Position numbers and translations under genes: made by a program. The notes under the pieces were generated by a model, which saw only the letters and a program-made list of their open reading frames with translations, did no database searches and was not told the origin of the DNA. This document shows positions 6,446-39,566 of a DNA stretch of 64,000 bases, in pieces. The stretch spans positions 1 to 64,000 of the forward strand of contig NZ_CANMOO010000006.1 of the NCBI RefSeq assembly GCF_947499585.1, written 5' to 3'. The number at the start of each line of letters is the position of its first letter. Positions within the stretch are counted from its first letter, which is position 1. The DNA is from an uncultured Allomuricauda sp. GTDB taxonomy: Bacteria > Bacteroidota > Bacteroidia > Flavobacteriales > Flavobacteriaceae.

Positions 6446-7030
6446 ATGTTAGAGAAACTTCTTAAATGGGATAGGGACACCTTTATTTACTTCAATGGAT
6501 TAGGTGTTGAGGAGTATGATTTTTTCTGGTCAACCATTACCAACATTACCACATGGATTCCCTTATTTCTATTGCTCATAGTACTTCTTATATTGAAATT
6601 TCCAAAGAAAGAGGCATTTTATAAGCTAATGACCATTTTTGGATTGGTATTTTTTATCATTATTGTTACGCACTTGACCAAAACATGGGTAGGACGTCTT
6701 CGACCTAATAATGCAGAAGAAATTAATACTTTGATCCGTATTTTAAAAAGCCCTACAGACTACAGTTTTTTTTCAGGACATGCTGCAAGTTCTTTTTCAA
6801 TAACCGTTTTGGTCTTTCTTTTTCTTAGGAAAAAGGTCAGATGGTTGGTTTTGTTTTTTATATGGCCATTGCTATTTGCAATAAGTAGAATATATGTGGG
6901 CGTTCATTATCCTCTAGATATCATAGTAGGAGCTTTAGTTGGTATTTTAACTGGACTACTTTTTTACAAATTGTACAACCGTTTTATTTTACCCTACTCA
7001 GAGTCAATCCATCCCTCACCGGAAGAATAA
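6446..7030 (+). CDS. PAP2-family membrane phosphatase
   Basis: 194 residues with about five hydrophobic helices. The three motifs of the acid phosphatase/PAP2 superfamily are present: KTWVGRLRP, FFSGHAAS and SRIYVGVHYPLD, giving the catalytic His-Arg-His set. The likely substrates are lipid phosphates such as undecaprenyl pyrophosphate or phosphatidylglycerophosphate; the sequence does not say which. It follows tatA by 3 bases. The last 47 bases overlap the 3' end of the convergent O-methyltransferase gene. Confidence 0.9.
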   Translation: MLEKLLKWDRDTFIYFNGLGVEEYDFFWSTITNITTWIPLFLLLIVLLILKFPKKEAFYKLMTIFGLVFFIIIVTHLTKTWVGRLRPNNAEEINTLIRILKSPTDYSFFSGHAASSFSITVLVFLFLRKKVRWLVLFFIWPLLFAISRIYVGVHYPLDIIVGALVGILTGLLFYKLYNRFILPYSESIHPSPEE

Positions 7031-7625
7031 CGGTTTCAACCCTAGGGTCATTTTTTAGCTTTTGGTTGTAGTCAATCAGAACAGCAGTGGCTTTATCAGA
7101 TTTAGCTAAGGGCTCCACAACTTTTCCGGACCATAAAACATTATCAGAAAGAATAATACTGCCAGATCTTGTTTTTTTGATTGCTGCCTCAAAATAGGCA
7201 TCATAATTTACCTTTTGCGCATCAATAAAGATTAGGTCAAAGCATAGGTCTAGCGTTGGAACAATATCCAAGGCATCACCAGTATGTTGTACAATCTGAG
7301 TTCCATAACCACTTTTATCAAAATACTTTCGCTGTAAATCATGTAACTCCTCATTTACCTCAATAGTATGTAATTCGCCCGTTTGTTGCAGCCCTTCAGC
7401 CAAGCAGATAGCAGAATAGCCAGTATAGGTGCCAATTTCAAGAATATTTTTGGGAGATGTGATTTTTGAGAGCAAGCTCAGCACCCTTCCTTGAAAGTGT
7501 CCGGTGATCATTCTAGGTTGTACAACTTTTAAATGGGTCTCCCTTGTTAGCTCCGTGAGAATTTCAGGTTCTGCCTCAGAGTTTTCAATGATATAATTTT
7601 CCAATATGGGTGATAGGAAATGCAT
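6984..7625 (-). CDS. Class I SAM-dependent O-methyltransferase (caffeoyl-CoA OMT-like)
   Basis: 213 residues. The SAM-binding motif ILEIGTYTGYSAICLAEGL is near residue 62, FDLIFIDAQKVNYDAYF supplies the metal-binding Asp region, and the C-terminus LPVRDGLTLSRVK is the family's usual ending. That confirms the stop and so confirms the 47-base tail-to-tail overlap with the PAP2 gene. The family methylates hydroxyls of small catechol-like compounds with Mg2+; the physiological substrate in flavobacteria is not known to me. Confidence 0.9.
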   Translation of the reverse strand: MHFLSPILENYIIENSEAEPEILTELTRETHLKVVQPRMITGHFQGRVLSLLSKITSPKNILEIGTYTGYSAICLAEGLQQTGELHTIEVNEELHDLQRKYFDKSGYGTQIVQHTGDALDIVPTLDLCFDLIFIDAQKVNYDAYFEAAIKKTRSGSIILSDNVLWSGKVVEPLAKSDKATAVLIDYNQKLKNDPRVETVILPVRDGLTLSRVK

Positions 7626-7688
7626 GCTTAAATTTTCGTAAAAATATAGAAAAGAACTACATTAGAATTTCACTTTTTAATTAAATGG

Positions 7689-8159
7689 ATGATTATGACA
7701 TCACCAGATTTTAAGTTAAGAAATGCAACCTTGGAGGATTTGCCAATTCTTTTGGATTTTGAACAAGAACTCATTACGGCAGAACGCCCTTTTGATGTTA
7801 CTTTAAAGGAAGATCCTATTAGTTACTATGACCTAAAACAAATAGTACTAGATGAGAATTCTTGTGTTTTGGTAGTCGAAATAGAGGGACGGGTGGTAGC
7901 ATCTGGATATGCAGTTCCCAAAAAAGCGAGACACTATCTTGACCATGAATATTATGCATACCTGGGCTTCATGTTCACCCATCAAGATTTTAGGGGAAAA
8001 GGTATCAATGCAAAAATTGTGGAAGAATTGAAAGATTGGTCAAAATCAAAAGGATATAAAGAAGTTAGGTTGACCGTCTATGAAGATAATATTCCAGCAA
8101 TAAAGGCTTATGAAAAAGTAGGCTTTAAAAAACACCTTATTGAAATGCGATTAGAGTGA
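7689..8159 (+). CDS. GNAT family N-acetyltransferase
   Basis: 156 residues. The acetyl-CoA site is readable in DFRGKGINAKIVEELKDWSK (R/Q-x-x-G-x-G/A), and the C-terminal AIKAYEKVGFKKHLIEMRL is the usual GNAT beta6/7 ending. Two start choices (7689 or ATG 7695) differ by two residues. The substrate cannot be told from sequence. It is a short free-standing gene before kynU. Confidence 0.88.
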   Translation: MIMTSPDFKLRNATLEDLPILLDFEQELITAERPFDVTLKEDPISYYDLKQIVLDENSCVLVVEIEGRVVASGYAVPKKARHYLDHEYYAYLGFMFTHQDFRGKGINAKIVEELKDWSKSKGYKEVRLTVYEDNIPAIKAYEKVGFKKHLIEMRLE

Positions 8160-8189
8160 ATTACACAAATTAAATAAGCCCACAAATTG

Positions 8190-8197
8190 TATTTTTG
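8190..8197 (+). promoter_or_regulatory. Putative -7 box (TATTTTTG) of kynU
   Basis: An exact TAnnTTTG match ends 15 bases before the ATG at 8213. The TTG inside this box could be mistaken for a start codon of a longer kynU frame; its promoter-like context argues for the ATG. Confidence 0.45.
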
Positions 8198-8212
8198 AAA
8201 CAAACCAAAACT

Positions 8213-9490
8213 ATGGCTTTCCAAAATTCCCTTGAATTTGCACAACAGTTGGATGCAGAAGATGAGCTTTCCAAATACAGGCAAGAATTTCACCATCCAC
8301 AGGTAAATGGCAGGGATGTTATCTACTTTACTGGAAACTCTTTAGGGTTGCAGCCTAAAAGAACTCAGAAGTTTGTAGACGATGTAATGAAAGATTGGCG
8401 GGAACTTGCAGTAGAAGGACATTTTTACGCAGAAAAACCATGGTGGGATTATCATGAACGCTTGGCGGAAGGTTTGGGCAAAGTGGTAGGTGCTAAGGCT
8501 CAAGAAATATCGGTAATGAATACACTTACTGTAAATCTTCATTTATTGATGGTGTCTTTTTACAGACCAAATAATAAACGCTTTAAAATTCTCTGCGAGG
8601 AAAAAGCATTCCCTTCAGACCAGTACATGCTGCAAAGCCAGGTGAGATTCCATGGCCTTGATCCAAAAGAAGCCATAATTGAGGTCAAAAAGAGAAATGG
8701 AGAACATTCCTGGAGAACAGAAGATATTATTGAAAAAATCAATGAAGTAGGGGATGAGTTGGCTTTGGTACTTATAGGGGGAGTCAACTATTATAACGGA
8801 CAAGTGCTGGACATGAAGACCATTACAAGCGCAGGAAAATCTGTTGGTGCTTTTGTAGGATGGGACTTGGCTCATGCTGTTGGCAATGTGGAACTCAAAC
8901 TTCATGATTGGGATGCTGACTTTGCAGCTTGGTGCAGTTATAAATACATGAACAGTGGCCCGGGAAATGCTTCGGGCATTTTTGTAAATGAAAAACACTT
9001 GGCCAAGAAAGATATTCCGCGTTTTGAAGGATGGTGGGGCACAAAAAAAGAAACCCGTTTTTTGATGCAGCCAGAATTCGACCCAATTGAGACTGCTGAT
9101 GCATGGCAATTAAGCAACCCGCCCATATTGTCTATTGCACCGTACTTGGCTTCTTTGGAACTTTTTAATGAGGTTGGAATGAACGCTCTTATTGAAAAGC
9201 AGAAAAAAATCGTGGCCTACCTTGAATTTGTTTTAAAGGAGATTGATAAAGAAGTAGAAAGTTCTTTTGAAATTATTACTCCTAAGGACCGAGGTTGCCA
9301 GCTCTCCGTTTTTTTACATGGAGAAGGCAAGGCTTTGTTCGATTACCTCATGAAGAATGGTGTAATTACAGATTGGAGAGAGCCTAACGTTATCCGGCTT
9401 GCTCCAGCACCATTTTATTGTTCTTATTCAGATATGTATAGTTTTGGACAGATTTTAAAACAGGGCATTCTTTCCAAAAAGAAACTATAG
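8213..9490 (+). CDS. kynU: Kynureninase
   Basis: 425 residues from the ATG chosen here; an upstream in-frame TTG at 8195 lies in a promoter-like box. A fold-type I PLP enzyme: GNSLGLQPK binds substrate and phosphate, WDLAHAVGN holds the PLP-ring Asp, and the Schiff-base Lys is K244 in SYKYMNSGPG. It splits kynurenine or 3-hydroxykynurenine into (3-hydroxy)anthranilate and alanine. The partner kynurenine 3-monooxygenase is encoded about 7 kb away (16400), so both enzymes flanking 3-hydroxykynurenine are here but not in one operon. No 3-hydroxyanthranilate dioxygenase or tryptophan dioxygenase gene was seen in the window. Confidence 0.96.
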   Translation: MAFQNSLEFAQQLDAEDELSKYRQEFHHPQVNGRDVIYFTGNSLGLQPKRTQKFVDDVMKDWRELAVEGHFYAEKPWWDYHERLAEGLGKVVGAKAQEISVMNTLTVNLHLLMVSFYRPNNKRFKILCEEKAFPSDQYMLQSQVRFHGLDPKEAIIEVKKRNGEHSWRTEDIIEKINEVGDELALVLIGGVNYYNGQVLDMKTITSAGKSVGAFVGWDLAHAVGNVELKLHDWDADFAAWCSYKYMNSGPGNASGIFVNEKHLAKKDIPRFEGWWGTKKETRFLMQPEFDPIETADAWQLSNPPILSIAPYLASLELFNEVGMNALIEKQKKIVAYLEFVLKEIDKEVESSFEIITPKDRGCQLSVFLHGEGKALFDYLMKNGVITDWREPNVIRLAPAPFYCSYSDMYSFGQILKQGILSKKKL

Positions 9491-13802: not shown

Positions 13803-14429
13803 GTGACTTTTCTAAAAAGGCTGTTTCTAATTCTTATAAATAACCTAGATAAGAAATCTTTGGAAGCAGATGACCCATATGCTCATTTATCTGATGAGGA
13901 ATTGGTAGAACGAATTGTTGCAAACAACAACCCTATGTTATTTGGTAAGTTGTACGATCGTTACGGAAAAATGGTCTATAACAAATGCTATGGATTTGCC
14001 AGATCACAGGACGAGGCAGAGGATTTAACTCAAGATGTTTTTCTACAATTGTTCATTAAGTTGAAAATGTTCAAGGGAAAGTCCAAGTTTTCTACCTGGC
14101 TATATTCCTTTACATATAACTTTTGTGTGAACTATGTAAACAGGAACAAGCAGCGCAAAATGAGTGATAAGTCTATTCCAGTTGAAAATTCGGAACATAA
14201 GTTAATCGTTGAAGTGCGAGATGATAGCCTGTTCGAAATGAAGGCTAATAAGCTAAAAGAAGCACTAGAACTGGTATCTGCGGAAGACAAATCCATTTTG
14301 TTGTTAAAATATCAAGATGGAGCCTCGATAAAAGATTTGGTGACATTGATGGAACTTGGAGAAAGTGCGGTGAAAATGCGCTTAAAAAGGGCAAAAGAGA
14401 AACTATTGGAAATCTATAATACCTTATAA
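13803..14429 (+). CDS. RNA polymerase sigma-70 family (ECF-type) factor
   Basis: 208 residues from a GTG start. Region 2 is clear (LYDRYGKMVYNKCYGFARSQ, DEAEDLTQDVFLQLF, STWLYSFTYNFCVNYVNR), and region 4 follows (ALELVSAEDKSILLLKYQDG, ESAVKMRLKRAKEKL). The first 25 residues before region 2 are less conserved, so a later start is possible. It is 3 bases upstream of a 62-codon gene and close to an MscS channel gene, suggesting an envelope or osmotic-stress regulon. No classical transmembrane anti-sigma gene is adjacent. Confidence 0.9.
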   Translation: MTFLKRLFLILINNLDKKSLEADDPYAHLSDEELVERIVANNNPMLFGKLYDRYGKMVYNKCYGFARSQDEAEDLTQDVFLQLFIKLKMFKGKSKFSTWLYSFTYNFCVNYVNRNKQRKMSDKSIPVENSEHKLIVEVRDDSLFEMKANKLKEALELVSAEDKSILLLKYQDGASIKDLVTLMELGESAVKMRLKRAKEKLLEIYNTL

Positions 14430-24931: not shown

Positions 24932-25492
24932 TCACTTTTTTTTGATAATCTCTGCTAAAAGTTTTTTGGCCCGTAAAAGTTTTACTTTGATATTGTTTAT
25001 GGGTTCATTGAGTTCTTTTGCTATTTCTGCGTAACTCAATTCATTAAAATATCTAAGGTTGATGACTTTTTGATAGTGAGGTTTTAATTTTTTAATGTCT
25101 TGTAAAAGATTGGCAAGATTTTGTTCTATAATTAATTGATCTTCTACAGAAGGTGTTTCATCCAAAACCTTTTTTACAACGTCACCATGGGTATCCATTT
25201 CATCTAAAAGGCTTCTTTTTCTTTTTCGGATAAGGTCTACATGAAGATTTTTGGAAATAGTAATGAGCCACGTCTTAAATTCATAGGCATCATCGTAGGT
25301 ATTTATCTTATCAAAAGCCTTGGAAAAGGTTCTGATTGTAATATCCTCGGCATCATTTTCGTTTTTAGTCCTAGTGAGCTGAAATCCATAAACATCGTTC
25401 CAAAAAGTATCCAAAAGTATGCTAAAGGCAATTTGATTACCATCTATTGCCTTTTTTATGTTCTCCTGTATGGACTGCTCAACTTTGTTCAA
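24932..25492 (-). CDS. ECF-type RNA polymerase sigma factor
   Basis: 186 residues from a TTG codon; no in-frame ATG lies upstream before a stop. Region 2: LLDTFWNDVYGFQLTRTKN, NDAEDITIRTFSKAF, FKTWLITISKNLHVD. Region 4: LPHYQKVINLRY-like block (KPHYQKVINLRYFNELSYAE) and NIKVKLLRAKKLL. Its regulon is unknown. No anti-sigma gene follows directly; lipA downstream has its own promoter. Confidence 0.92.
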   Translation of the reverse strand: MNKVEQSIQENIKKAIDGNQIAFSILLDTFWNDVYGFQLTRTKNENDAEDITIRTFSKAFDKINTYDDAYEFKTWLITISKNLHVDLIRKRKRSLLDEMDTHGDVVKKVLDETPSVEDQLIIEQNLANLLQDIKKLKPHYQKVINLRYFNELSYAEIAKELNEPINNIKVKLLRAKKLLAEIIKKK

Positions 25493-25812: not shown

Positions 25813-26571
25813 TTAATAAGTGATATTGGCCACTATATTTTGAACTGTAGGTGAGGTATTGCCTCCTTCTGGTTCAATGGTAATGTATCCTATTGCATTT
25901 TCTGCATATGGAAGCGCCAAGAGTTTATTTTTATCATCAAATTGTTTGATGACACCCAAATTGACCAACTCTCCATTTACTTCTGCCCACATTTGAAAAC
26001 ATTTGTTTTCAGGAAGATTGGGCACATTGCTAACATTGATATAGGAAAGTTTTTTTACTGGATTTATGTAAGCTACGGCCTTAAGCTCTTTAGCTTCCAT
26101 TTTACCTTTTACATTATATCTTTTAGTACCTGGGTTGTTAAGAACGATAAACTGGTTTCTAACATCTTCCAGTTGATTTTTCATGTTTTCCTCCAAAGAC
26201 TTCATTTGGTTGGTAACCAAAGTATTTTCTTCTTGAAGACTTTTGCTTTGATTCCAGAAAAAGTATGAAGAGCCAGCAAATATCATTATGGCCACACTGG
26301 CCGCAATTGCATAACGGAAGAATTTTTTACTTGCAACTTGCTCTTTTCTAGCACTGTGAAGAATAATCTCCTTAAGACCTTCAGGTGTTTTTCTAGCATA
26401 TGTCTTAGCAAAAGCTTCCAAGTTATCTTGAAGCTCATTGTAAGTTTCCCTTACTTCAGGATACATAGTGATGTACCTTTCTGCTTTAAGGTTTTCTTCT
26501 TTAGAAGTATCCCCTAAAAGATATTTTTCCAGTATATCGGAATCCAAGAATATTTTTACTTTTTCTTTCAT
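25813..26571 (-). CDS. Anti-sigma factor, RskA-type
   Basis: 252 residues. Residues 1-80 form the cytosolic sigma-binding part (ILEKYLLGDTSKEENLKAER), a transmembrane helix spans about 86-106 (FFRYAIAASVAIMIFAGSSY), and a coiled coil leads to a periplasmic RskA-like domain (CFQMWAEVNGELVNLGVIKQ, IGYITIEPEGG). It overlaps the upstream sigma gene by 4 bases, the classic sigma/anti-sigma pairing. It would hold the sigma factor at the membrane until a periplasmic signal frees it. Confidence 0.92.
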   Translation of the reverse strand: MKEKVKIFLDSDILEKYLLGDTSKEENLKAERYITMYPEVRETYNELQDNLEAFAKTYARKTPEGLKEIILHSARKEQVASKKFFRYAIAASVAIMIFAGSSYFFWNQSKSLQEENTLVTNQMKSLEENMKNQLEDVRNQFIVLNNPGTKRYNVKGKMEAKELKAVAYINPVKKLSYINVSNVPNLPENKCFQMWAEVNGELVNLGVIKQFDDKNKLLALPYAENAIGYITIEPEGGNTSPTVQNIVANITY

Positions 26572-27134
26572 GGTAATAAAATTATCAATAGAAGTATAGT
26601 CATTGTTGTACCGTAAATCTTACCAAGTTCCCTTAAACCAATTTTTAATCTTGATTTAACTGTTCCCAGTGGAATATCCAACTCTTCACTTGCTTCTTGC
26701 TGCGTCATTCCTTGAAAAAAAAGAGCTTCCAAAACGATTTGATATTTTGACTCTATTTTCTCCAAGTTATCTTGGACATCCATAAATTCTGGCCTTATGC
26801 CGTTTACTCCTAGATTATATACGTCTGAAACGTCTATTTGGACTTCTTTGTCTGATTTATTGTTAACACTTCTTAACTTATCTATCGCTGTGTTTCTTGT
26901 AATGCGAAACAGCCATGTGAAAAGTTTTGCTTTGGATGGATCGTAAGAATCTGCTTTTTTCCAGATTTTTATGAAACTTTCTTGAAGAACATCTTGTGCC
27001 AAATCCTCATCTCTAACAACTTTATAGGCCACACCAAAAAGAGTATCTCCATAGTTATCATATAAAAGTGATATTGCTTTATCATCTTTTTCAGCAAGTA
27101 ATGAAACAATATGTTTCTCGATTAGTGTACTCAT
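26568..27134 (-). CDS. ECF sigma factor (SigK-like) paired with the RskA-type anti-sigma factor
   Basis: 188 residues. Region 2: ISLLYDNYGDTLFGVAYKVV, DLAQDVLQESFIKIW, FTWLFRITRNTAID. Region 4: ALFFQGMTQQEASEELDIP and GTVKSRLKIGLREL. The C-terminus adds a short hydrophobic tail. It is the first gene of a two-gene operon with the anti-sigma factor. A perfect 8-bp inverted repeat lies 69 bases upstream of its start. Confidence 0.93.
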   Translation of the reverse strand: MSTLIEKHIVSLLAEKDDKAISLLYDNYGDTLFGVAYKVVRDEDLAQDVLQESFIKIWKKADSYDPSKAKLFTWLFRITRNTAIDKLRSVNNKSDKEVQIDVSDVYNLGVNGIRPEFMDVQDNLEKIESKYQIVLEALFFQGMTQQEASEELDIPLGTVKSRLKIGLRELGKIYGTTMTILLLIILLP

Positions 27135-34289: not shown

Positions 34290-34466
34290 GGTTTTCAGAA
34301 TTTAGATAACATGAAATAAGCGGCAAAAATAATTCTTGGTTTACTTTGAGGTTATTTTGTTGCCTGAGCTTATCTAATCTCTTGGCTTTAAGCTGTGTGA
34401 GAATTAAATTAAAAATTACTGTAACAGTCGTGTTTTGAGATGTGTCTAAATCATAAAGCAATTATT

Positions 34467-34961
34467 ATGATTTACAAAAGATGCATTTACGCAGCATTAG
34501 TCATCTGCTTAGGTATGACCACTAATATGAATTCTCAAACACAAAAAGTTATGCAAACCAAAACAATTTCAGAAGACCAACAAGATGTTCTTAACGCAAT
34601 CGAGTCTATGACTCAATCCTTTAACAGTAAGGATATTGATGGCGTTATGTCTAGTTATCAAACCGGTGCTTTGGTGATTTTTGAACCAGAAACTAGGGTA
34701 ACCGATTTCAAAGTTTTAAAAGAAATGTTTTTGGGTGCTTTTTCGATCAATCCAAAATTTGAGTATCCCAAAGGTCACGAGGTTTTTATAAATGGTGATA
34801 CCGCAACCCATATTGCCCCATGGACTATGACCGGAACCGCACCAGATGGTACCATAATCAAACAAAGTGGACTTTCCATGGCAAATCTTAAAAAGCAGAA
34901 GAATGGTAAATGGTTGCTTACGTTTGATAATCCGCATGGAAGTTTTTTAATGAATAAGTAA
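34467..34961 (+). CDS. Secreted SnoaL/DUF4440-like protein
   Basis: 164 residues from ATG 34467. An in-frame ATG at 34440 would put nine charged and polar residues ahead of the signal peptide (YAALVICLGMTTNMNS) and is less likely. The body is a SnoaL-like alpha+beta barrel: AIESMTQSFNSKDIDGVMS, VTDFKVLKEMFLGAF, WTMTGTAPDGTIIKQSG and W-L-L-TFDNPHGS. Such folds bind small molecules or act as isomerases or dimer modules. Only 3 bases separate it from the sigma-factor gene, an unusual partner for an exported SnoaL protein. Confidence 0.85.
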   Translation: MIYKRCIYAALVICLGMTTNMNSQTQKVMQTKTISEDQQDVLNAIESMTQSFNSKDIDGVMSSYQTGALVIFEPETRVTDFKVLKEMFLGAFSINPKFEYPKGHEVFINGDTATHIAPWTMTGTAPDGTIIKQSGLSMANLKKQKNGKWLLTFDNPHGSFLMNK

Positions 34962-34964
34962 AAG

Positions 34965-35831
34965 ATGAACTCACAACTAAATGAAAATACATCTGATGAA
35001 GTTCTTATTGAAAAAGCCCTTTCTGGTGATAAATCTGCTTTGGAGTTTCTGATTATAAAGAATCAAGATTGGATTTTCAATGTGGCGCTGACCTTTGTTG
35101 GTGATACAAATGAGGCGGCAGATTTGACTCAGGAAGTATTGATCAAGGTCATTACAAAACTGGAAAATTTTAAACAGAACAGTAGTTTTAGAACATGGAT
35201 GTATCGTATCATAAAAAACCACTTTTTGAATATGAAAAGAGGAAAACATGAGGTAAATCCACCAACTTTTGAACAATTTGGTCATGGATTAGATCAGTTA
35301 CCAGATGAATCCCTTTCTGATTATTCCTTTGAAGTAGAGGAAAAACTATTGGTAAAAGAGGCTAAAATTAGCTGTATGAAAGGAATGCTCTTGTGCCTTG
35401 ATCGAGAGCAAAGGCTCATATATATTATTGGGGAGTTATTTGAGTTCCCAGATTCTGTTGGGAGCGAGATTATGGAAATTTCCAAGGAAAACTTCAGGGT
35501 AAAATTACATAGAGCTAAAAAGCAGCTATATAATTTTATGAATCATAAATGTGGCCTCCTTAATAAATCCAACCCCTGTAGATGCCATCGTAAGACAGCT
35601 GGTTTTATAAAAATTGGTTATGTAGATCCAGTGGAGCTTAGTTTTCAAAAAGATGTTATCAGTGAGATAAATGAGGTGATAGATAAGAAAGTAGAAGCCT
35701 ATTCCAACGAGGTTTTGCCAGATTATTTAAAACTCTATCAGGAACATCCATTTTTAAAATGTCCGGACAAGTTGGAGTCTATTAGAAAATTACTTTCTAC
35801 TAAAAGCATTAAGGAGACCTTTAATTTATAG
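34965..35831 (+). CDS. ECF sigma factor with long cysteine-containing C-terminal extension
   Basis: 288 residues, about 90 more than a plain ECF factor. Region 2: FLIIKNQDWIFNVALTFVGD, EAADLTQEVLIKVIT, FRTWMYRIIKNHFL. Region 4 is weaker (CLDREQRLIYIIGELFEFPD, ENFRVKLHRAKKQL). The extension starts with C196-x8-C205-R-C207-H208-R-K-T and then GFIKIGYVDPVEL, followed by a helical tail. The Cys/His cluster could bind zinc or an iron-sulfur cluster and sense redox. It follows the SnoaL-like gene by 3 bases and precedes a molybdoenzyme gene. Confidence 0.88.
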   Translation: MNSQLNENTSDEVLIEKALSGDKSALEFLIIKNQDWIFNVALTFVGDTNEAADLTQEVLIKVITKLENFKQNSSFRTWMYRIIKNHFLNMKRGKHEVNPPTFEQFGHGLDQLPDESLSDYSFEVEEKLLVKEAKISCMKGMLLCLDREQRLIYIIGELFEFPDSVGSEIMEISKENFRVKLHRAKKQLYNFMNHKCGLLNKSNPCRCHRKTAGFIKIGYVDPVELSFQKDVISEINEVIDKKVEAYSNEVLPDYLKLYQEHPFLKCPDKLESIRKLLSTKSIKETFNL

Positions 35832-35860
35832 GAGCGCTTTATGTTTATAGCCGATTTATG

Positions 35861-35888
35861 CCTCCCTCTCCTTTTTTGGAGAAGGAGG
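35861..35888. repeat. REP-like hairpin
   Basis: CCTCCCTCTCC and GGAGAAGGAGG pair with a single mismatch around a six-T loop. No T run follows in either direction, so it looks more like a dispersed palindromic repeat or an RNA-stabilising hairpin than a terminator. Confidence 0.55.
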
Positions 35889-35946
35889 TATATGCGGTCA
35901 ATGTTTTTTGCAATCTGTATCTTTATAATAATTATAATTTCAGCAT

Positions 35947-38232
35947 ATGCCTAAAGCTCCAAAACGTAACATTTCAGCCACCGGAACTATAGAATTTTCA
36001 AATTTAAAGGTTGCAGAGCCTTCAGATTATGCTGCCGGGATTCCTGGAATAAAGGCAGCTTTGGAACATGTAAGTAAGGAAGCTGGCTTGTTTAGATCTT
36101 TAAAAACCCTTTCCCATATGAATCAAAAGGAAGGTTTTGATTGTCCAGGTTGTGCATGGCCAGATCCGGAAAAGCCTTCTAAATTGGGTGAATACTGTGA
36201 AAACGGGGCTAAAGCGATTGCAGAGGAAGCTACATTGGAACGGGTAGATAGGAATTTTTTTGAGAAACATTCTGTTGAGGAAATTTCTACATGGACAGAT
36301 TATCGCATCGGAAAAAGTGGCAGAATTACTGAACCTTTCATTTTAAGGCCAGATTCGATTCATTATGAGCCTATTTCCTGGGCGGAGTCTTTCAAAATTA
36401 TTGCGGAAAATCTACATACTCTTCATTCTCCAGATGAGGCCATTTTCTATACATCTGGGCGTTCTAGCAATGAAGCTGCCTTTTTATATGGTCTTTTTGT
36501 GCGTGCTTTTGGCACTAACAATATGCCAGATTGTTCCAATATGTGTCACGAATCTAGTGGAGTGGCACTTTCTGAAACATTGGGAATAGGCAAAGGTTCT
36601 GTTGTTTTAGAAGACTTTCCGGAGGCTGAGGTTGTTATTGTCATTGGGCAAAACCCGGGCACTAATCACCCTAGAATGCTGACTGCATTGCAAAAATGCA
36701 AAGAAAATGGAGGTAAGATCATTACCATTAATCCTCTTTCAGAAAGTGGATTGAACAGATTTAAAAATCCACAACAACTCAGTGGAATATTAGGTGGAGG
36801 AACCCAACTCACTGATATTTTTCTTCAAGTGAAAATCAATCAAGATGTTTCTTTGTTAAAACTTATTATGAAGCGTTTGGCAAAGCGCCATAAAGAAGGG
36901 GAAAGGATATTTGATGATGCATTTATCTCAGAGAAAACAAGTGGGTATCAAGAGCTATTGGATGATTTGGAGAGCCATGATGAAGACCAATTACTCCAAT
37001 TATGTGGGGTAGATTCCGCACAAATTGATTTGGCAGTTGGGCTACTTGCTAAAAAATCAAAAATCATTATTTGCTGGGCCATGGGACTTACGCAACATAA
37101 AAATGGAGTTGAAAATATAAAAGAGTGTGTAAATCTGTTATTGCTTAAAGGAAGTATAGGCAAAAAAGGGGCGGGGACCTGTCCTGTTCGCGGACACAGT
37201 AATGTGCAAGGAGATAGAAGCGTGGGAATTATGCACCATGTTTCAGAATCTTTGAACAAATCCATTCAGAACGTATTTGGTTTTCAACCACCAAATAAAG
37301 AAGGCTTGGATACAGTGAATGCTATACAAGCAATGCACAAAGGAAAGGCCAAGGTTTTTATCGCGTTAGGTGGAAATTTTGTTTCTGCAGCGTCAGATAC
37401 CATATATACTTCGGATTCACTCCAGGCCTGTGATTTAACGGTTTCAGTTAGTACAAAACTAAATCGCACGCACCTTACTGCTGGTAAAATAGCTTTGATC
37501 TTACCCACTTTGGGTAGGACAGAGAAGGACAAGAAGCGCTTTGTAACCGTAGAGAACAGTATGGGAAAGGTACATCAAAGCGAAGGTAGGTTAGAACCCG
37601 CTAGTGACCATCTAATGAGCGAGCCAGAAATTATCGCCAACATGGCTCAGGCATATTTTGGTGCAGATGCTCAGATTGATTGGATGACTTTAGGAACTGA
37701 CTACAATTTGATTAGGGATAAAATTTCCATGGTTTTGAATGGTTATGAAGAATATTCCAATAGATCAAAAGGCTCTGGATTTTACTTGCCCAATAATACT
37801 AGGGAGGCGGATTTTTCAAAATTACCAGATGGCAAAGCCCAGTTTTCAGTATGTAAACTTCCGCAACATAATTTAGAAACTGATGAATTTGTATTGATGA
37901 CCGTTCGCAGTCATGACCAATTTAACACGACTATTTATGGTATGAATGATAGGTATCGTGGCATTTATGGAGAACGAAGGATTGTTTTTATGAATCCAAG
38001 TGATATGAAAAACCAACAACTACACGCTCAACAAGTGGTGGATTTGGTGAGCAATTATGATGGAAAAGAGCGGCGAGCGGAAAAATTCAAGCTAATTCCT
38101 TATGATATTCCTTCTGGGAATTTATGTGCATATTTTCCAGAAACCAATGTACTGGTGCCTATAGATTTGTATGCAGATAAGAGTAATACTCCGGTTAGTA
38201 AATCAATTATTGTAAAGATACAGTCCGTTTAG
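35947..38232 (+). CDS. FdhF/YdeP-family molybdopterin oxidoreductase
   Basis: 761 residues, of usual length. The short N-terminal Cys motif DCPGCAWPDP is that of YdeP-type proteins rather than true formate dehydrogenases. Further family marks are YTSGRSSNEAAFLYGLFVRA, CSNMCHESSGVALSETLGIG, IGQNPGTNHPRML and GAGTCPVRGHSNVQGDRSVG. The C-terminus is the molybdopterin-dinucleotide-binding domain (TVRSHDQFNTTIYGMNDRYR). E. coli YdeP is linked with acid resistance, but its substrate is unknown; no fdhD or mo-cofactor gene lies in the window. Confidence 0.92.
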   Translation: MPKAPKRNISATGTIEFSNLKVAEPSDYAAGIPGIKAALEHVSKEAGLFRSLKTLSHMNQKEGFDCPGCAWPDPEKPSKLGEYCENGAKAIAEEATLERVDRNFFEKHSVEEISTWTDYRIGKSGRITEPFILRPDSIHYEPISWAESFKIIAENLHTLHSPDEAIFYTSGRSSNEAAFLYGLFVRAFGTNNMPDCSNMCHESSGVALSETLGIGKGSVVLEDFPEAEVVIVIGQNPGTNHPRMLTALQKCKENGGKIITINPLSESGLNRFKNPQQLSGILGGGTQLTDIFLQVKINQDVSLLKLIMKRLAKRHKEGERIFDDAFISEKTSGYQELLDDLESHDEDQLLQLCGVDSAQIDLAVGLLAKKSKIIICWAMGLTQHKNGVENIKECVNLLLLKGSIGKKGAGTCPVRGHSNVQGDRSVGIMHHVSESLNKSIQNVFGFQPPNKEGLDTVNAIQAMHKGKAKVFIALGGNFVSAASDTIYTSDSLQACDLTVSVSTKLNRTHLTAGKIALILPTLGRTEKDKKRFVTVENSMGKVHQSEGRLEPASDHLMSEPEIIANMAQAYFGADAQIDWMTLGTDYNLIRDKISMVLNGYEEYSNRSKGSGFYLPNNTREADFSKLPDGKAQFSVCKLPQHNLETDEFVLMTVRSHDQFNTTIYGMNDRYRGIYGERRIVFMNPSDMKNQQLHAQQVVDLVSNYDGKERRAEKFKLIPYDIPSGNLCAYFPETNVLVPIDLYADKSNTPVSKSIIVKIQSV

Positions 38233-38312
38233 TCATCTATCCTATTTATTGAGAGAACGCCTTTATCGATTGGTAATCGATGACTTTAGATGATTTTTTT
38301 ATCTTTAGAAAC

Positions 38313-39566
38313 ATGGAAACCTATGCCACAGCTTTATTATATGCTACTCCATTTTTTATAGGGCTTGTACTTTTTGAAGTTCTATATGGGCATTTTGTAA
38401 AAAAACAGATGCACAATGTAATGGACACCATAAGCAGTTTAAGCTCCGGACTTACCAACGTAGTTAAAGATTCATTAGGCCTTGGGATTATTATTGTTAC
38501 GTATCCTTTTCTATTGGATTTTTTTGCATTAACTGAAATAAAAGAGACTTGGTTGGTCTGGATTGTGGCCTTTTTTGCTCTTGATTTTGCAGGTTATTGG
38601 AACCATCGTTTAAGTCATAGCATCAATTTTTTTTGGAACCAACATGTAATACATCACAGTAGTGAAGAGTTCAATTTGGCCTGCGCGCTAAGGCAATCTA
38701 TCTCCAATTTGTTGGGGTATTTTCCATTATTATTGATTCCCGCGGCGTTGTTAGGTGTTCCACATAAGGTAATCGCCATTTTGGCCCCTATTCATTTATT
38801 TGCCCAATTCTGGTATCATACAAGACACATTGGTAAAATGGGATGGTTAGAATACATTATTATAACACCGTCACAACATAGAGTGCATCATGCAATCAAT
38901 CCAGAATATATAGATAAGAATCTGGGTCAGATTTTTAGCTTTTGGGATAGAATGTTTGGGACTTTTCAAGAAGAACTACCAGAAGTTCCGCCTCAATATG
39001 GTGTCTTAAAACCAGCTGGTACATGGAATCCGATACTTATCAATTTTCAACATATTTGGAGGTTAATAAAAGATGCATGGCGTACCAATAGCTATTGGGA
39101 TAAACTAAGAATTTGGTTTATGCCAACAGGATGGAGGCCAGAAGATGTGAAGGAAAAGTATCCAATTCAAATTATTCAAGATGTTTATAACTTCAAAAAA
39201 TATAAGCCTGAAGCTTCCAAAGACCTGAAGGGCTATTCAATTTTTCAACTATTGGTAAACACCATATTAATGTTGTTTATGTTCTATAATTATTCTGAAA
39301 TAGGTTTTAGTGGTCTCCTTTTATTTGGGGCGTATATATTTATTGGAATTTATGGATACTCAACTTTGATGGATAAGGAAACCTATGCTGTTTGGATTGA
39401 AGTTTTTAGAAGTATCGCCGGACTAACATTGATTTTTATAACGGATGATTGGTTTGGTTTGAACAGTTATTTTTCGATAGGAAGCTACTTGGTGGGCCTC
39501 TATTTTGTAATTACAATCTTTGGTGGGGTGTATTTTGCTTACTTTGAAAATAAAGATATACTTTAA
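38313..39566 (+). CDS. Sterol desaturase / fatty acid hydroxylase family membrane protein
   Basis: 417 residues from ATG 38313. An earlier in-frame ATG at 38280 overlaps a 7-bp inverted repeat and is less likely. The di-iron histidine boxes are complete: HRLSH, HVIHHSSE, and HRVHHAINPEY. Several transmembrane helices surround them, and the C-terminal third adds more helices (FQLLVNTILMLFMFYNYSEI). The family inserts hydroxyls or double bonds in lipids at the membrane; the substrate here may be a fatty acid, sphingolipid or carotenoid. Ends 11 bases from the convergent acyl-CoA-binding protein gene. Confidence 0.9.
   Translation: METYATALLYATPFFIGLVLFEVLYGHFVKKQMHNVMDTISSLSSGLTNVVKDSLGLGIIIVTYPFLLDFFALTEIKETWLVWIVAFFALDFAGYWNHRLSHSINFFWNQHVIHHSSEEFNLACALRQSISNLLGYFPLLLIPAALLGVPHKVIAILAPIHLFAQFWYHTRHIGKMGWLEYIIITPSQHRVHHAINPEYIDKNLGQIFSFWDRMFGTFQEELPEVPPQYGVLKPAGTWNPILINFQHIWRLIKDAWRTNSYWDKLRIWFMPTGWRPEDVKEKYPIQIIQDVYNFKKYKPEASKDLKGYSIFQLLVNTILMLFMFYNYSEIGFSGLLLFGAYIFIGIYGYSTLMDKETYAVWIEVFRSIAGLTLIFITDDWFGLNSYFSIGSYLVGLYFVITIFGGVYFAYFENKDIL

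Follow-up and report, generated by a model that had tools for sequence, protein, structure and literature searches.

A SnoaL/DUF4440-sigma factor pair with five invariant cysteines and exchangeable partners: a candidate self-sensing operon in Allomuricauda

How far does an operon extend, and what does its sigma factor sense, when an extracytoplasmic function (ECF) sigma factor with a cysteine-rich tail lies between a small, apparently exported protein and a molybdoenzyme? The question is raised by three genes in a row on the + strand of a contig from an uncultured Allomuricauda sp. (NZ_CANMOO010000006.1, positions 1 to 64,000; this whole stretch of 64,000 nucleotides is termed the window). They encode a SnoaL/DUF4440-like protein of 164 amino acids (aa) with a signal-peptide-like N-terminus (34467-34961), an ECF sigma factor of 288 aa (34965-35831) and an FdhF/YdeP-family molybdopterin oxidoreductase (35947-38232), with a gap of only 3 bases (34962-34964) between the first two and of 115 bases between the sigma and YdeP-like genes. 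A first-pass annotation had reported the row, the 3-base gap and the residues C196, C205, C207 and H208 in the sigma tail, all of which are borne out by the coordinates and alignments. Comparative sequence analysis indicates that the real unit is a two-gene SnoaL/DUF4440-sigma operon, and we consider it probable that this single operon is an autoregulated ECF switch with an on-board thiol or metal sensor, following a logic like that of ECF41 but with a cysteine tail replacing the fused SnoaL domain.

Evidence for the pair as a unit comes from three samples. With the sigma factor as query, a pattern-based search that finds close relatives returned 36 loci from 84,980 species genomes (loci and genomes are cited by our L and G labels). 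A SnoaL relative lies immediately upstream on the same strand in 29 of these and downstream of the sigma gene in one (L050, Kiloniella); the other six have a different small gene. Within a sample of 60 genomes of the window's genus, its own included, the sigma family (E <=1e-40) is present in 14, of which 8 have the SnoaL-paired type (E 4.1e-143 or better). The SnoaL-type sigma gene, the SnoaL gene and the promoter described below occur in the identical 8 genomes of the 60, and the two genes are adjacent in each. Finally, in a phylum sample of 247 genomes, where a first look passed on just the best 10 and at most 14 candidates from each genome for scoring, the sigma family was found in 6 and the SnoaL family (E <=1e-20) in 2, both times beside such a sigma gene. 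The pair is therefore a patchy but tightly linked unit.

The pair also appears to carry its own promoter. Upstream of the SnoaL-like gene lies a conserved bipartite sequence which in the window reads CTGTAACAGTCGTGTTTTGAGATGTGTCTAA (34419-34449, + strand), with TGTAAC at 34420-34425 as the putative -35 element and TGTCTAA at 34443-34449 as the putative -10 element. An AAC-containing -35 together with a GTC-containing -10 is the form of ECF promoters. The consensus is TGTAAC-N17/18-GTCYA, of which the window has the version TGTAAC-N18-GTCTAA. Searched as TGTAAC-N15-19-GTC[TC]A in 59 loci (822,064 bases), the pattern matched 42 times, 40 of them preceding a partner-sigma operon, against 9 matches for the backward control. 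Every one of the 29 loci with an upstream SnoaL gene has it before the operon, as do the window and G162. Among the genus genomes, the strict pattern occurs in 8 of 60, once each save for one extra site in G312, versus 4 sites across the 60 genomes for the backward control, and it matches the window's own genome a single time. We infer that the operon is autoregulated by its own sigma factor through this promoter. The position also bears on the start of the SnoaL-like gene, which is likely to be 34467 because the longer mechanical reading-frame start at 34440 falls within the promoter. A wider regulon was considered and is unsupported. A relaxed pattern gave 3 matches in the own genome versus 9 for the backward controls, so that no wider regulon was detected there; likewise, a scan of ten genomes gave 11 matches, three of which fall at the known operons in G019 and G162, versus 14 for the control. 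Upstream of the sigma genes in L051, L103 and L108 are divergent TGTGACA and TGTCACA sequences, as if facing promoters served the sigma gene and a divergent gene.

The second protein of the pair is an ECF (group 4) sigma factor, having regions 2 and 4 without region 3. Sigma70_r2 is matched with E 8.8e-16, region 4 falls under the Pfam threshold (16.1 vs 25.7), and the protein exceeds the ECF superfamily model TIGR02937 (66.8 vs 42.9) over the stretch 25-190. The protein has a C-terminal extension of about 90 aa. Five cysteines, spaced C137-x6-C144 and then C196-x8-C205-x-C207, are invariant in each of three alignments (30/30, 32/32 and 60/60 sigma proteins), and 42 of the 60 proteins have no cysteine outside this set. 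It is kept in relatives from Leptospira, Enterococcus, Kiloniella and a metagenome-assembled genome labelled Chloroflexota, the binning of which is unchecked. The three tail cysteines named in the first-pass annotation are thus conserved among the homologues, as it had asked of its motif; the motif itself has to be redrawn to comprise five cysteines, including two where region 4 starts, and to leave out H208. Position 208 is a histidine in only 14 of the 60 proteins, and its candidacy as a metal ligand was rejected on that count. Six other ECF sigma factors of the own genome lack the five-cysteine set, although one has a cysteine aligned with position 196 and one with position 205. As to how the alignments were made, the 60-sequence set, which also served for the tree below, was filtered for more than 250 aa and >=4 cysteines; this filter cost the set three of the 64 cluster members (in L024, L037 and L069), each under 200 aa in length, and none longer than 250 aa. 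Two sigma proteins with 5 cysteines (L031 and the second of L102) were omitted from the list, and L055 and L100 are extra copies of genomes already counted. The 30/30 and 32/32 alignments were made without the filter and have the same five invariant columns. A regular expression for the motif passed over one sigma locus out of 25, L087 (which is the L106 gene), owing to a serine at 197, although all five cysteines are there.

Further copies of this sigma type deserve mention in their own right. The own genome encodes a paralogue of 41% identity (L009; G000:C1:353231-354073) with the five cysteines, followed by three Polyketide_cyc2-type genes, and L041 has two five-cysteine sigma genes in tandem (7001-8801), 68% and 45% identical to the window's. 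Relatives with the five cysteines are also found on plasmids of Leptospira interrogans (L109, about 47% identical), with a small, weakly ABM-like gene near it, and of Enterococcus raffinosus (L111, about 30%), with an adjoining DUF2461 gene.

A predicted model of the sigma factor places C137 in the helix opening region 4 and C144 just past that helix; C196 lies directly behind the long (recognition) helix, and C205 and C207 are in coil. The five residues may converge into a common site. In the circuit that we propose, C137 and C144, where region 4 begins, and C196, C205 and C207, just past the recognition helix, would either coordinate a metal or serve as a thiol switch; their state would set the shape of region 4, and the sigma factor would sense the signal itself, with no need of an anti-sigma factor. 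Once activated, it would transcribe its own operon, yielding more sigma factor and more SnoaL-like protein; the latter, exported, would bind or convert a small organic compound in the envelope, and the loop would be closed by its removal of the inducer.

The competing explanation that survives best, and which we nonetheless regard as rather unlikely, is a purely structural role for the five cysteines, as ligands of a zinc that stabilises region 4, with expression level alone setting activity. Their full invariance across operons with very different partners, described below, fits a structural site as well as a sensor. However, an operon that activates itself and encodes no other regulator would presumably need some switch, and the tail cysteines of CorE, CorE2 and OrbS do sense metals (PMC9023288).

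Several observations weigh against the autoregulated, self-sensing operon. The related genomes that carry it are non-independent samples. At L048, the promoter match lies some 300 bases before the SnoaL match; the strict TGTAAC pattern is missing in L038, in L107 and in the L009-type group (L009, L051, L101-L103, L108); and L050, L053, L104 and L105 have TGTCACA...TGTCTA before the sigma gene in place of the TGTAAC form. The sigma model is mediocre, with a pLDDT of 73.8 overall and mostly about 60-70 in the tail. Finally, of the 8 genus genomes with the SnoaL-sigma cassette, 7 have the YdeP-like gene after it on the same strand and the eighth (G356) has no YdeP gene.

How does the operon compare with described systems? 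The sigma factor belongs with the ECF sigma factors that bear a regulatory C-terminal extension. The closest precedent in logic is ECF41, for which an enzyme gene and a sigma gene, often in one possible operon, with one promoter and a single target are known from experiment (PMC3426412). Ecf41Bli, Ecf41Rsp and SigJ resemble the present system in having no anti-sigma gene, an enzyme gene beside the sigma gene and often upstream of it, a bipartite promoter, an apparently single target, and a regulatory C-terminal extension (PMC3426412). The -35 elements are also similar, being TGTCACA in ECF41 and TGTAAC here, with TGTCACA in four distant relatives. There are also differences. SnoaL is fused to the sigma factor in ECF41, whereas the tail here has the cysteine motif and predicted helices, a Pfam scan of the window sigma gave no SnoaL match, and the SnoaL-like protein is separate and predicted to be exported. 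The ECF41 promoter is TGTCACA-n16-CGTC, while the main -35 in the window is TGTAAC and the -10 TGTCTAA. The COE gene beside an ECF41 sigma encodes a carboxymuconolactone decarboxylase, oxidoreductase or epimerase. The partner here is SnoaL/DUF4440-like and may still count as an oxidoreductase in a loose sense, given the annotation of its distant relatives on Rhizobium plasmids (below), and the partner in L070 is SDR-like.

Cysteine-bearing ECF sigma factors offer other parallels. CorE and CorE2 (formerly ECF44, now with ECF238) likewise have cysteines in the C-terminal extension and before or at region 4, and no anti-sigma factor (PMC8999054). Their tails read C-x4-C-x2-C-x-C and CC-x3-C-x2-C-x-C (PMC9023288), versus C-x6-C and C-x8-C-x-C here; they have a CXC in the linker between sigma2 and sigma4, whereas the linker of the window sigma contains no cysteine (PMC8999054, PMC9023288); and these are metal-responsive sigma factors, and the window operon has no metal-transport gene. 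Absence of the CXC does not exclude membership in ECF238, because about 85% of that group lacks it (PMC8999054). OrbS (ECF243), an on-board iron sensor, also carries a cysteine cluster right after region 4.2 and thus a sensor within the sigma factor, but its spacing is C-x2-C-x3-C-x5-C, its targets are siderophore genes and it has no SnoaL-type partner (PMC9023288). ECF56 SigG1-RsfG likewise links an ECF sigma factor with a SnoaL domain, but as a fusion and with a separate anti-sigma factor, RsfG, neither of which is seen at the window operon (PMC7730460). Abundant cysteines are also reported in the tails of ECF287 and ECF288 (PMC8999054); the comparison with these groups and with ECF238 is by description only. 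Within the open-access literature, so far as its contents were available, no account was found of such a sigma factor with SnoaL, SRPBCC or ABM partners.

The first protein of the pair has, by prediction and profile comparison, the NTF2 fold. Its best Pfam match is DUF4440 (E 1.1e-4; 23.0 bits vs a cut-off of 25.2, just under the curated threshold), its profile matches 2gxf with E 5.1e-8, and the predicted structure (pLDDT 83.7) has a signal-peptide helix followed by an NTF2-like cone. The nearest solved structures are ketosteroid-isomerase/NTF2-like, the best being 3hx8 (TM 0.80 by target). Among 18 sequences, the invariant residues include H104, H115, W119, D127, S137 and D154, which could line a polar pocket. 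All 32 SnoaL rows show a hydrophobic N-terminal segment when judged by simple hydropathy rather than with a dedicated predictor; L001 in this set is the window itself, L010 and L029 come from one genome, and L048 and L050 are represented by rows that reach upstream of the likely start. The first-pass annotation had argued from the signal peptide that the protein is separate and not simply the split domain of ECF41 or ECF56, and this point stands; the simple split-domain reading was rejected on the N-terminus and on the replacement of SnoaL by other proteins in sister operons. A plasmid search with the SnoaL protein returned 13 records with weak DUF4440-type relatives of 27-29% identity; distant relatives on Rhizobium plasmids are annotated as SgcJ/EcaC family oxidoreductases.

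Replacement of the partner begins close to the window's own type. In the sister loci L037, L038 and L040-L043, an SRPBCC-like gene lies immediately upstream of the sigma gene (with a small open reading frame between in L043). This partner (cluster c19) matches the profile of 2qpv, which we take to be of SRPBCC-like fold, with E 9.5e-8, and Polyketide_cyc2 (E <=1) in 4 of 8 members, at best with 2.9e-6; a signal peptide is missing in 8 of 9 rows. Of 8 SRPBCC-partner operons, 6 retain the promoter, namely five of the six sister loci and the second operon of G162; it was not found in L107. G162 (L067) offers a natural partner-swap pair, having two family sigma operons close by, one with a SnoaL and one with an SRPBCC-like partner, with promoters at 8854 and 12348.

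Farther relatives are more varied. Polyketide_cyc2 proteins accompany the own-genome paralogue L009 and L052; YdhR-like proteins, both slightly over the Pfam cut-off, accompany L071 and a Runella plasmid copy (L110); DUF2461 is found in the Enterococcus locus L111 and DinB in L051. An ABM-like label was given to L068 (beside a DUF6194 gene), L106 and the Leptospira plasmid locus L109, and is weak, with a best E of 0.08 to SnoaB; Pfam ABM is matched at an E of about 0.04 by L106 and L109, and L068 has no such match. The partner in L053, L054, L104 and L105 is an unclassified protein that we read as a membrane protein, and that of L070 is SDR-like; this and other neighbour labels without a Pfam call are our own reading of the sequences. 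Among these farther relatives, the TGTAAC promoter is kept in L070, L071 and L110, and outside these and L050, L053, L104 and L105 neither the TGTAAC nor the TGTCACA form was found. When the partners are sorted into five classes and mapped onto a maximum-likelihood tree of the 60 sigma proteins, no fewer than 12 changes of class are required, where 4 would be the lowest possible number and shuffled labels average 26.2; the count hinges on the classes, which we assigned ourselves. The labelled partner is not always the nearest gene: in L068 DUF6194 is nearest and the ABM-like gene second, in L052 and L069 a small lipoprotein-like gene is nearest, followed by Polyketide_cyc2 (or the related c48), L051 and L108 have a DinB-type gene in first place, and in L009, L101, L102 and L103 the labelled genes lie downstream of the sigma gene. 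Well-supported branches force at least 2 changes for SnoaL; the bootstrap had yet to settle completely, and the placement of the long branches L050 and L111 is unsure.

These partner swaps bear on a second alternative, by which the SnoaL-like protein or its precursor would be the regulator, binding the sigma factor and keeping it inactive as a detached ECF41 SnoaL domain. The near-overlapping genes and strict pairing in the genus would suit it, as would the fact that SnoaL domains regulate ECF41 sigma factors (PMC3426412, PMC8999054). Against it stand the signal-peptide-like N-terminus of every row and the closest sister operons, which have an unrelated and mostly signal-peptide-free SRPBCC-like partner with the same kind of sigma factor and mostly the same promoter. 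Because the partner is exported in one clade and mostly cytoplasmic-looking, with another fold, in the next, a direct regulator of the sigma factor is unlikely, and we hold this explanation to be improbable. Instead, the SnoaL-like protein or its replacement looks like a product controlled by the sigma factor rather than a split sigma domain.

If the self-sensing operon is read in this way, the partner swap suggests a modular chemical-stress circuit. It is tempting to go further, and we do so only tentatively, with doubt outweighing belief, in proposing a broad, undescribed family of self-sensing sigma factors. Their five cysteines would read a reactive small organic compound (or a metal), each copy would act on no operon but its own, through a TGT[A/C]ACA/TGTCTAA-type promoter, and a swapped small-pocket partner (SnoaL, SRPBCC, YdhR-like and others), often exported, would remove the compound. 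Were this family reading true, the sensor would be constant and the detoxifying module exchangeable. Self-sensing is known for few sigma factors, and the combination of one promoter, one partner per operon and a fixed set of five cysteines makes the sensing question directly testable, with the partner swaps supplying many natural versions whose signals can be compared. The proposed circuit, if true, would also assign exported SnoaL/DUF4440-like proteins a function, and the sigma factor and its promoter could serve as an orthogonal pair for Bacteroidota.

What, then, of the molybdoenzyme? The YdeP-like protein passes TIGR01701 (FdhF/YdeP family; 860 vs 582 bits) and falls short of the YdeP equivalog (648 vs 1473). 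Conservation of the gene neighbourhood, which the first-pass annotation had proposed as a check, holds for the SnoaL-sigma pair and largely fails for the third gene: YdeP follows the pair in 7 of the 36 related loci, all of Flagellimonas/Allomuricauda, and 29 have no adjacent YdeP. Conversely, YdeP is present in 52 of the 60 genus genomes, 45 of which lack the pair, and is beside this sigma gene in only 7. Eight genus genomes (L092-L099) have a YdeP 80-92% identical to the window's, no SnoaL-sigma pair and other genes upstream of YdeP, L099 having only a short open reading frame near a contig end. The block TAATGTTTCTTGCAATCTGTATCTTTATAAT directly before YdeP is nearly identical in the window and in cassette-free L092, the closest of these (92% identical YdeP), and the sequence beyond this YdeP-proximal block is much less alike; an alignment of the window, L016 and L092 marks a promoter-like block 5' of YdeP at 35900-35928 (+). 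Between the sigma and YdeP-like genes, a hairpin-forming stretch (35860-35891, +; z -2.98 and -3.14 in two runs) without a U tract could be a transcript end or barrier. The corresponding gap in seven relatives gave z -2.3 in L015, -4.6 in L016 and -1.9 in L017, and -1.1 to 0.5 in the other four. Since the block survives in L092, YdeP is preceded by other genes elsewhere and the hairpin intervenes, YdeP most likely has its own promoter, would be raised at most by read-through from the SnoaL-sigma operon and is probably, at the genus level, merely a neighbour outside the conserved unit.

That the operon extends to YdeP, with the cysteine-tail sigma factor sensing redox or acid stress and driving the molybdoenzyme, as the first-pass annotation had supposed, would accord with the shared strand and order in seven cassette genomes and with a terminator scan that reported no consensus intrinsic terminator, nor the hairpin, between the two genes, but is made unlikely by the many YdeP genes without the pair, the cassette of G356 and the 29 wider loci without an adjacent YdeP, the block kept in L092, and the hairpin in the window and three of seven relatives.

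Around the operon, a gene that we read as encoding valine-tRNA ligase (ValS) lies upstream of the SnoaL-like gene, and a fatty-acid-hydroxylase-family gene (38280-39566) is next after YdeP. Rfam gave no match in the window at gathering thresholds. Simple scans of the window were uninformative, both for sigma-70 promoters (16 promoter-like sequences vs 13.6 expected) and for terminators (one terminator-like sequence, inside the sigma gene, vs 3.0 expected). Gene content at the junction between ValS and the YdeP and hydroxylase genes (34290-35946 in the window; L092-L098) varies among genus genomes, so that it looks like a site of frequent insertion or replacement. The window contains further ECF genes at 24932-25492 and 13803-14429, and an ordinary ECF sigma gene (26568-27134) that adjoins an RskA-like anti-sigma gene (25813-26571), both on the - strand.

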